Source: Bacteroidota bacterium (GTDB lineage Bacteria > Bacteroidota > Ignavibacteria > UBA10030 > UBA8401). From it: DNA of 64,000 nt. Shown here piece by piece: positions 5,405-47,242 of the stretch. The notes under the pieces were generated by a model. That model was not told the DNA's origin. It saw only the letters and a list, made by a program, of their open reading frames with translations, and ran no database searches. The stretch is taken from positions 1 to 64,000 of the forward strand of contig WBUG01000010.1 of assembly GCA_008933835.1 (NCBI GenBank), in the 5' to 3' direction. Each line of letters starts with the position of its first letter. Position 1 is the first letter of the stretch. Both the position numbers and the translations under genes were made by a program.

Positions 5405-5418
5405 GGGAGAATGTCGAT

Positions 5419-5509
5419 GGTATATGGAAGATGGTAGTCGGTAGACGGTAGATGGTAGATGGTGGACGGTAGATGGTAGATGGTAGATGGTAGATGGTAG
5501 ACGATAGAT
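5419..5509. repeat. 13-unit degenerate heptanucleotide tandem array, consensus GGTAGAT
   Basis: ggtatat ggaagat ggtagtc ggtagac ggtagat ggtagat ggtggac ggtagat x4 ggtagac gatagat, in strict 7-bp phase. Confidence 0.95.
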
Positions 5510-5527
5510 GGCTCTCTATGACTTTGC

Positions 5528-35734: not shown

Positions 35735-36823
35735 ATGAGTTCTCTCGTCGAAAAACTCCTCTCCATCAAGCGCCGCCATGCGGAGGTGCAGGAGCTCCTC
35801 GCCACGCCCGAGGTCATCGCCAATCAGCCGCGCAGCCGCGAGCTGGGACGCGAGTTCCGGGAACTGGAGTCCATCGTGAAGGCCTCGGACATCTACCTGA
35901 AGCTCCACAACGACATCGAGGGGAGCCGCGCCGTGCTGAACGCGGGGGGAGATCCGGAACTGAAGGAGATGGCGCTGGCGGAGATCGGCGAACTGCAGCC
36001 CAAACTGGCGGCGATGGAGGAAGAGGTGAAGCAGCTCCTCCTCCCCAAGGACCCGAACGACGACCGGAACGTCATCGTCGAGATCCGCGGCGGCACCGGC
36101 GGCGAAGAGGCGGCCCTCTTCGCGGCGGACCTCTACCGCATGTACGTCCGTTTCGCGGAACGGAAGAAGTGGAAGGTCGACACGCTGGACTGGAACGAGA
36201 CCGACAAGGGGGGATTCAAGGAGGTCACCATCAGCATCGACGGCGAGGACGTGTACGGCACCCTCAAGTTCGAGAGCGGCGGACACCGCGTGCAGCGGGT
36301 CCCCGAGACCGAGGCGCAGGGACGGGTCCATACCTCCGCCGCCACGGTGGCGGTGCTGCCGCAGGTGGAGGACGTGGAAGAGGTGAGCATCAACCCCGCG
36401 GACCTGGACATCGACACCTACCGCTCCGGCGGCAAGGGGGGACAGAACGTGAACAAGGTCGAGACCGCCGTGCGCATCACCCACCGTCCCACCGGCATCG
36501 TCGTGGCGTGCCAGCAGGAACGCTCGCAGCTCCAGAACCGCGAACGGGCGATGAAGATGCTCCGCTCCAAGCTCTACGAGATCAAGCTCAACGAACAGGT
36601 GAACGCGCAGGCGCAGGCTCGAAAATCCATGGTCGGCTCCGGCGACCGGAGCGATAAAGTGCGCACCTACAATTTCCCGCAGAACCGCGTCACCGACCAC
36701 CGCATCGGACTGACGCTCTACAGTCTGGACCGTTTCATTGACGGGGATATCGACGAGATGCTCGAGGCATTACGGCTGGCGGACCGGGCGGAGAAGCTCA
36801 CGACAATGAACAATGATCAATGA
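35735..36823 (+). CDS. prfA: peptide chain release factor 1
   Basis: 362 aa; VQRVPETEAQGRVHTSAATVAVLP (PxT codon-recognition motif), GGKGGQNVNKVETAVRITHRPTGI (GGQ), GSGDRSDKVRTYNFPQNRVTDHRIGLTL. Confidence 0.95.
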   Translation: MSSLVEKLLSIKRRHAEVQELLATPEVIANQPRSRELGREFRELESIVKASDIYLKLHNDIEGSRAVLNAGGDPELKEMALAEIGELQPKLAAMEEEVKQLLLPKDPNDDRNVIVEIRGGTGGEEAALFAADLYRMYVRFAERKKWKVDTLDWNETDKGGFKEVTISIDGEDVYGTLKFESGGHRVQRVPETEAQGRVHTSAATVAVLPQVEDVEEVSINPADLDIDTYRSGGKGGQNVNKVETAVRITHRPTGIVVACQQERSQLQNRERAMKMLRSKLYEIKLNEQVNAQAQARKSMVGSGDRSDKVRTYNFPQNRVTDHRIGLTLYSLDRFIDGDIDEMLEALRLADRAEKLTTMNNDQ

Positions 36824-36880
36824 ACAATCATCAATGAACAAATTTCTTTGTTAATTGTTCATCGTTGATTGTTGATTGTT
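36804..36880. repeat. 11-unit heptad array, consensus CAATGAA / inverted GATTGTT, between convergent prfA and tadA
   Basis: caatgaa caatgat caatgaa caatcat caatgaa caaattt ctttgtt aattgtt catcgtt gattgtt gattgtt; the second half is the approximate reverse complement of the first. Confidence 0.93.
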
Positions 36881-45482: not shown

Positions 45483-45882
45483 TGTCGTGGTTGCCTTCTC
45501 CGGTCACCGGCCGGAAGCAACGGTGGTCTATGAACGATACCGATGGTCACATCAAGGCGTTCATTGTACCTCTTCATTAGTCGATAAGCAAGGATGATTC
45601 CATGGTGCGCAACATGGCGTGCCGCTGCCACCGACAGCCGGACGCCGTCTCCACAATGATGTTGGAATTATTATGCAGTATGTCACTGATAACGAACATG
45701 CGCCTGTTTCACATCATAGTGCATGGAATGAGAATGTGCTTCGGAGATTGATAGTCTATAATAAAGGTGACATCTCTTCAATATTTCCGATACGGTTTAA
45801 AATAAAGAAACAGATGATAGCACTTCATCCGAGTCTTCGTTTCCATCTCTTCCTTTGTGTCTTTGTGTGATGCTCTTTTTTA

Positions 45883-46189
45883 AGTCCCCACCCGAACTCA
45901 TCCGGTATTCTCGTATTTGGTTGTAAAACCTCCTCCATCTCTCCGTAACAACCCTTGCCGCGGTCAATGTATCAAAGACCTCTCCAGTGAGCAACTCATC
46001 TCCGAGTTTACCATTGAACGATTCGATGGATCCGTTCCCCCAAGGACTTCCCGGTTCTTAGAGGACTTCAGCTTCGTGGAGGTTTGCGATGATCTGTTCT
46101 GCGGTGTGATTCTTTCGCGCCAAGGCGGGATCCCTTGCTTGTCGATCCAATATATCAAATTGGACCGGCTTGGGGGGGGGGACAGGTCA
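45883..46189 (-). mobile_element. internally deleted IS3-family element (MITE-like remnant)
   Basis: Minus strand: left end TGACCTGTCCCCCCCCCC at 46189; orfA start ARKNHTAEQIIANLHEAEVL* (46120-46058) runs straight into orfB C-terminus EPGSPWGNGSIESFNGKLGDELLTGEVFDTLTAARVVTERWRRFYNQIREY; right side ends near GGGTGGGGAC at about 45883. Confidence 0.85.
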
Positions 46190-46945
46190 GTCGCCTCCGG
46201 CAACCAGCAAGGCTCCGGAACCCTCCGAGCATCTTCCGCGTCGTAGGCTGGTGCCGTTGTCTCTGCTGATGTCACCGCGACTTCCGAGTCTTTAGTCACT
46301 TTCGTTCTTTGCGCCTTTGCGTGACATCTTTTAACATGAAGAAGGCCCTGATTTCTCAGGGCCTTCTTGTACACCCGACATCCCCCTGCGTCAGACCACA
46401 ACGAAAACGGCAGGGTCTGACTTCGGGGGATTCGGAGTCTCCCGCCTAATGTAACATCTCCACGGCGGGACGTCGCCTCCGGCAACCAGCAAGGCTCCGG
46501 AACCCTCCAGGCATCTTCCGCGTCGTAGGCTGGTGCCGTTGATTCCGCTGATGTCACCACGATTTCCGAGTCATTAGTCCCTTTCGTTCTTTGCGCCTTT
46601 GCGTGACATCTTTTAAAATGAAAAAAGGCCCTGATTTCTCAGGGCCTTCTTGTACACCCGACATCCCCCTGCGTCAGACCACAACGAAAACGATAGGGTC
46701 TGACTTCGGGGGATTCGGAGTCCCCCGCCTAATGTAACATCTCCACGGCGGGACGTCGCCTCCGGCAACCAGCAAGGCTCCGGAACCCTTCAGGCATCTT
46801 CCGCGTCGTAGGCTGGTGCCGTTGATTCCGCTGATGTCACCACGATTTCCGAGTCATTAATCCCTTTCGTTCTTTGCGCCTTTGCGTGACATCTTTTAAA
46901 ATGAAAAAGGCCCTGATTTCTCAGGGCCTTCTTGTACACCCGACA
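46190..46945. repeat. ~283-bp direct repeats, two full copies plus a partial third running into tRNA-Arg
   Basis: tcgcctccggcaaccagcaaggctccggaaccct... begins at 46191, 46473 and 46756; copies are near-identical; the third is interrupted at the tRNA 3' end. Confidence 0.95.
46907..46930 (-). terminator. terminator of tRNA-Arg, duplicated in the upstream repeat copies
   Basis: aaggccctga-tttc-tcagggcctt with TTTTTCATTTT following on the minus strand. Confidence 0.88.
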
Positions 46946-47008
46946 GGAGTCGAACCTGTAACCCCCAGCTTCGTAGGCTGGTGCTCTATCCAGTTGAGCT
47001 ACGGGTGC
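46935..47008 (-). tRNA. tRNA-Arg(ACG)
   Basis: GCACCCGTAGCTCAACTGGATAGAGCACCAGCCTACGAAGCTGGGGGTTACAGGTTCGACTCCTGTCGGGTGTA folds as a cloverleaf; anticodon loop CTACGAA. Confidence 0.95.
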
Positions 47009-47242
47009 ATTTATCTGTTGAGTCCCGATGAACGGCATCGGGATTCTGAAAACGGCTGCTGCTCGCAAACATCGCTCGCAGGCCGTTTTCGAACTACGGG
47101 TGCATGACGAAAAACGTAGATTCGTTCACAAATATACTGATTTCTTTGTTTTTATCAAAATAGAAATTCACACAAGGGGCATCGGATGTTATCGTATCCG
47201 GTCGATGGGATACGGAAGCAGAAAATGCCGTATATTACCACC

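Follow-up and report, generated by a model that had tools for sequence, protein, structure and literature searches.

A tandem array beside a tRNA-Arg gene, read as the probable relic of a GIY-YIG element that targets tRNA genes in Bacteroidota

Why should a short repeat be stacked against the end of a tRNA gene and carry pieces of that gene in every copy? The window analyzed here, a 64-kb stretch from a Bacteroidota draft genome (3.57 Mb in 163 contigs), contains a single tRNA gene according to ARAGORN and Rfam, that for tRNA-Arg(acg). Because this gene sits at 46934-47008 on the minus strand, the array next to it lies on its 3′ side. The original prediction described a direct repeat of ∼283 bp in 2.7 copies, and TRF recovers exactly this (46190-46945; period 283, 2.7 copies, 96% matches, score 1391), with unit spacings of 282 and 283 in a repeat search. 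A chance origin is excluded by that score together with the absence of any second array of period at least 40 in 459 kb of the source genome (395 kb of other stretches plus the window). Point changes at several sites distinguish the units from one another, and the array is therefore no trivial assembly stutter. The 283-bp repeat has no copy anywhere else in the draft, whether linked to a tRNA gene or not. The features of the tRNA gene and its 3′ side are as follows.

46934..47008, minus strand: intact tRNA-Arg(acg), nt 1 at 47008 (ARAGORN; Rfam tRNA, 66.8 bits)
46190..46945, minus strand: 3′-side tandem array, 2.7 units of 282-283 bp (TRF, repeat search, unit layout)
46904..46933, minus strand: terminator hairpin directly 3′ of the tRNA, with copies at 46622-46651 and 46339-46368 (inverted repeats)
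46820..46903, minus strand: trailer/spacer with CACGCAAAGGCGCAAAG, GIY-YIG ORF absent (sequence)
46803..46819, minus strand: pseudo-tRNA piece nt 25-41 of unit 1, also at 46520-46536 and 46238-46254 (local alignment)
46783..46787, minus strand: pseudo-tRNA piece GGTTC (nt 52-56), 5′ side of the T-loop, also in relatives G003 and G016 (sequence)
46723..46782, minus strand: insert A, ∼60 bp, at the T-loop, hairpin CCCGCC...GGCGGG, also in G003 and G016 (DNA fold)
46717..46722, minus strand: pseudo-tRNA piece GACTCC (nt 58-63) (sequence)
46664..46716, minus strand: insert B, ∼53 bp, within the T-stem, long hairpin (fold)
46652..46663, minus strand: pseudo-tRNA 3′ end nt 64-75, end of unit 1, next copy at 46369-46380 (local alignment)

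Directly beyond the outer edge of the array is a poly-G run (46173-46181). An IS3-type transposase C-terminal fragment (EPGSPWGNGSIESFNGKLGDELL..., 45880-46060, minus strand; rve_3, E 1.6e-14), preceded by a stop, adjoins the outer end. Elsewhere in the window, TRF reports two heptamer tandem repeats, GATGGTA x 13.7 (5416-5511) and ACAATGA x 5.6 (36803-36841).

In minus-strand orientation, every unit proves to be a tRNA-Arg pseudogene, 5′-truncated but collinear, that retains nt 25-41, 52-56, 58-63, and 64-75 in the order terminator hairpin, spacer, nt 25-41, nt 52-56, insert A, nt 58-63, insert B, nt 64-75, and terminator again. The copies of the tRNA 3′ end, the anticodon-arm pieces with their 14-nt core, and the repeated terminator hairpin are all present where they had been predicted; the nt 25-41 piece aligns with a score of 29, the best of 200 shuffles reaching 28, and the middle hairpin copy passes a terminator scan. 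What had been described as one structured segment of ∼95 bp is indeed structured but resolves into two inserts around tRNA nt 58-63. Both inserts fold strongly (z-score -3.6, DNA fold), and the hairpin of insert B contains a GAA/GCA internal loop (ATCCCCC-GAA-GTCAGACC...GGTCTGAC-GCA-GGGGGAT). Because a copy of the terminator hairpin follows the tRNA end in every unit, the distal units are probably little transcribed.

The same insert A occurs at the same position in single-copy units at tRNA-Arg(acg) in G003 (L041) and G016 (L038); insert B is not in these units, and inspection by eye of the tRNA-Arg(acg) flanks in G005, G006, G008, G011, and G014 revealed no recognizable unit. We therefore infer from these orthologous units that the unit is older than the source genome and that its tandem expansion is more recent. 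The CACGCAAAGGCGCAAAG motif was found, among the loci searched, only in the window array and at the same tRNA in G018. As a general marker of units, CACGCAAAG was rejected, since apart from this array it turned up at the same tRNA of a single relative and nowhere else.

A further, mirror-image unit, missed by the original prediction, lies on the 5′ side of the gene. It comprises a copy of the tRNA 5′ end (47091-47105, ATGCACCCGTAGTTC), two hairpins (∼47048-47090 and 47023-47043), and then the real tRNA 5′ end.

47011..47105, minus strand: 5′-side unit (direct and inverted repeats)
47131..47158, minus strand: promoter-like site upstream of the 5′-side unit (consensus scan, 10/12, which does not demonstrate function)

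In the source genome, the gene for tRNA-Arg(tcg) has arrays on both sides, one of 95 bp x 6.1 carrying the tRNA 5′ end and related to the 5′-side unit of the window, the other of 84 bp x 4.3 carrying the 3′ end. Arrays with periods of 41-358 bp occur at 10 of its 44 tRNAs (TRF, within 300 bp), compared with none in 395 kb of its non-tRNA sequence (bin test, p=4e-11), and TRF also finds arrays at many tRNAs of G003 and G004. Unit sequences are unrelated between tRNAs, and unit lengths span 41-358 bp. Several contigs of the source genome (C11, C26, C43, C49, C51, C53, C58, and C137) stop a few hundred bases or less from a tRNA gene, which suggests that tRNA-linked repeats break the assembly.

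Partial copies of tRNA genes were counted in seven genomes of the family, drafts of unequal quality, as exact matches of at least 13 nt (13-mers) within 1 kb of the gene. A same-strand partial self-copy accompanies 51 of 287 tRNA genes, while the opposite strand yields 0 of 287. These copies obey a side rule: upstream copies mostly start at tRNA nt 1 and downstream copies mostly reach the 3′ end, the exceptions being interior pieces left by inserts and a few matches to neighboring tRNAs. Breaks cluster in the D-loop (nt 13-17), at nt 22-28, in the anticodon (33-38), at nt 42-47, and in the T-loop (56-61). One genome, G006, stands apart, with partial copies at 1 of 43 tRNAs versus 46 of 202 in five further genomes of the family (p=0.001, a contrast that rests on one lineage and is no phylogenetically independent series); a search of the same genome gave zero non-UvrC GIY-YIG matches.

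Neighboring tRNA pieces are separated by 51 distinct inserts, located in the T-loop (22), D-loop (7), anticodon loop (5), variable arm (1), or elsewhere (16, many of them after nt 22-23 in our own numbering). At least half of the sequence is self-paired in 43 of the 51, and at the seams mostly no tRNA base has been lost or gained. Several inserts consist of two palindromes of 11+11 or 15+15 nt with complementary loops (e.g., TCCC-AAA-GGGA and TTCC-TTT-GGAA), and such palindromes are rare elsewhere in the source genome. Double palindromes in pseudo-tRNA loops, several with complementary loops, were seen at L335, L371, L388, L379, L401, L405, L412, L298, and L213. Nearly the same palindrome, CCTGCCTGCCGGCAGGCAGG, follows nt 22 of a tRNA-Arg half at L033 (1985-2035), L186, L387, and L400, whose hosts belong to different families across the phylum. 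For some 5′-type inserts, the pairing partner is the D-arm strand of the tRNA, and the paired stretch encloses a TC/TC internal loop; barring some of these palindromes, the arms are no copy of the tRNA, and snap-back synthesis was rejected as their source. For comparison with REP/RAYT systems, the source genome has one weak Y1 transposase match (PF01797), and the TCC..GGA palindromes showed no dispersal across background sequence. A group I or group II intron was also discarded, as Rfam detects the tRNA alone and the tRNA itself is uninterrupted.

The recurrent companion of these units is a gene for a GIY-YIG endonuclease. In the full element, a small GIY-YIG ORF abuts an intact, co-oriented tRNA gene, and a truncated copy of that tRNA lies on the far side; the copy is the tRNA 5′ part where the element is upstream and the 3′ part where it is downstream, with palindromic inserts at the D-, anticodon-, or T-loop. 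The element thus splits the tRNA gene and restores it from the tRNA sequence that it carries itself. The source genome itself has such an ORF-bearing form, arranged as tRNA-Arg nt 1-34 with a palindrome after nt 22, the GIY-YIG ORF, and intact tRNA-Arg(tct). At tRNA-Ser(tga) of G004, 358-bp tandem units each carry a GIY-YIG ORF and a tRNA-Ser pseudogene; at tRNA-Pro(cgg), there are two GIY-YIG units in G015 and one in G010. At many loci, that of the window included, the ORF is absent, and pseudo-tRNA, hairpin, and leader or trailer units follow one another head to tail. ORF-bearing and ORF-less units also occur at the same tRNAs (e.g., L263, L329, L344, and L161), and the source genome (G000) combines few class-T ORFs (2) with many arrays, which counts against the explanation offered below.

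With UvrC left out, 72 GIY-YIG matches were examined in the family; 40 of them are no more than 500 bp from a tRNA, and every one of these 40 shares its orientation. Under a motif split into class T and other, drawn post hoc after the linkage had been seen, 37 of 43 class-T matches are near a tRNA versus 3 of 29 of the other class (p=1e-10). A profile built from 26 tRNA-adjacent members (A1) retrieved members in 96 of 148 Bacteroidota genomes; among the best 30 A1 loci, a tRNA adjoins 27, all co-oriented, and most have the split copy on the far side. In the protein tree, ORF-bearing units from different host families group together according to tRNA isotype (18 changes versus 30.6 when shuffled, 0/200), and the same target is thus reoccupied in different hosts. 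Active-site-type residues are invariant in the tRNA-adjacent members. The nearest solved relatives of the class-T catalytic domain are UPF0213 (E 7e-15) and SLX1 (E 8e-8); phages hold only weak relatives, and a phage origin of class T was rejected. SLX1 is a structure-specific nuclease, and we know of no role of UPF0213 or SLX1 nucleases as tRNA-linked mobile elements.

Taken with the anatomy of its units, the window array is probably a tandemly expanded, ORF-less relic of a homing element of this GIY-YIG type, one that targets tRNA genes. It contains no ORF and is most plausibly a non-autonomous relic that lacks any autonomous function; since no GIY-YIG ORF is left there, the derivation of its unit from an ORF-bearing element rests on anatomy. 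In the mechanism that we propose, a class-T nuclease would cut its tRNA gene, and repair of the break would either insert the element (homing, at the same tRNA isotype) or duplicate the flank together with a tRNA end. Survivors would be only those events that leave one intact tRNA, which may be why the side rule holds. The class-T nuclease would in this way make the units, and copy number could later shift through unequal exchange between short direct repeats. The palindromic inserts are a feature that a simple cut-and-repair model fails to explain.

Nuclease-driven amplification of a tRNA segment has a precedent, since a tRNA-Tyr segment of phage T6 is amplified in tandem through the action of SegB, a GIY-YIG homing endonuclease whose homologues co-localize with tRNAs in phages (PMC13096335). 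T4 segB likewise lies 5 nt before a co-oriented tRNA-Arg; however, SegB has 221 aa, its match to the class-T A1 profile (0.9 bits) is not significant, no split tRNA-Arg copy is present at segB, and its setting is a phage rather than a chromosome. An incomplete literature search for tRNA-linked GIY-YIG elements of bacteria returned only this paper on the phage enzyme SegB, and as far as that search goes, we found no earlier report of the element described here. Palindromes that resemble the inserts are known from mitochondria, where double-hairpin or repetitive hairpin-forming elements of Allomyces and sponges occupy RNA genes and spacers and are proposed to be mobile (PMC2800124). They share with the inserts the short palindromes, single or double, but they are mitochondrial and dispersed, with no tie to a nuclease or to tRNA fragments.

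A close structural parallel is in Escherichia coli K-12, where tyrV is followed by 3.1 units of 178 bp (L384), each with nt 67-85 (the last 19 nt) of tRNA-Tyr, and where the tyrT-tyrV spacer is another such unit. Like the window array, these repeats (rttR sRNA, tpr) are tandem units 3′ of a tRNA that carry the tRNA 3′ end, and a hairpin-rich insert breaks up their T-arm at the T-loop; in the tyrT units, the 5′ half of the T-arm is followed by an insert of 67-68 nt exactly at the T-loop seam. They differ in that the insert sequence is unrelated, no GIY-YIG ORF is annotated at the locus, and the phylum is another. The resemblance is one of structure with no evident sequence similarity and is no proof of a common origin.

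The original prediction proposed either a scar of repeated integration and excision or a small tandem element that recreates the tRNA 3′ end. The second proposal came close, so that the interpretation as a whole is partly supported; the first, in which a tRNA-targeting tyrosine integrase would have left the array behind, we consider very improbable. Its appeal is that the tRNA 3′ end recurs at every junction, that attB sites classically fall in the T-loop or the anticodon loop, and that tRNA-integrating genomic islands also rebuild part of the tRNA at the insertion site. Those islands, however, depend on an integrase and are far larger, and their anatomy is unlike that of the array: a simple att core would be a tRNA 3′ end with no interior tRNA, and units of 41-358 bp that hold collinear pieces from nt 25-63 and an interrupted T-loop are not what att cores give rise to. 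The 5′ side of the tRNA is used as well, and the recurrent companion gene is the GIY-YIG endonuclease. Around the array, no tyrosine integrase was seen in the ORF list by eye, and a profile search gave only the IS3/rve-type transposase fragment, which is no tRNA integrase.

Neutral tandem duplication, in which replication slippage or template switching would act on tRNA genes and the GIY-YIG ORFs would be separate passengers of these loci, is a more serious competitor, though still an unlikely one. Most arrays, the one in the window among them, lack an ORF, copy numbers vary, and expansion needs no more than short direct repeats; arrays could grow by slippage or recombination with no nuclease involved. 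Against such a process stand the restriction of arrays to tRNA loci in the sampled stretches, the strictness of the side rule, the presence of units with and without the ORF at the same tRNAs (e.g., L263, L329, L344, and L161), and the near lack of units in G006. There is a small chance that the units encode a functional processed RNA, as proposed for the rtT RNA of E. coli tyrT: they fold strongly, and the E. coli tyrV/tyrT units pair the same anatomy with an annotated sRNA, but little transcription is expected past the terminator copy that follows the tRNA end in each window unit, and unit sequences differ from tRNA to tRNA. An assembly artefact has next to no probability. The genome is a draft in which several contigs end at tRNAs, yet the units differ by point changes, and the same architecture is present in E. 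coli K-12 and in the single-contig genome G184, whose tandem ORF units at spacings of 317-323 bp argue against an artefact.

The relic of a GIY-YIG homing element thus remains the reading that we prefer for the window array. A wider proposal, which we offer tentatively and as rather less than an even bet, is that minimal (∼300-bp) selfish elements parasitize bacterial tRNA genes throughout the phylum. In it, an SLX1/UPF0213-like, structure-specific GIY-YIG nuclease would recognize the tRNA gene in its folded or cruciform state, split it, and restore it with a half borne by the element; paired palindromes would sit seam-precise in the loops of the discarded half, and ORF-less satellites, the E. 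coli tyrT repeats included, would be non-autonomous derivatives.

One odd repeat has thereby become a case of a general phenomenon, in which tRNA genes across the Bacteroidota are accompanied by small nuclease elements and satellite arrays. For the E. coli tyrT repeats, which have gone unexplained for decades, it offers a testable origin, and the palindromes inserted exactly at the tips of tRNA loops raise a concrete question. It also carries a warning that such arrays may cause draft assemblies to break off at tRNA genes. The evidence speaks for a selfish element that has been little noticed and has its home on tRNA genes, and it suggests that a mobile element may dwell on essential, nearly invariant genes by rebuilding them.
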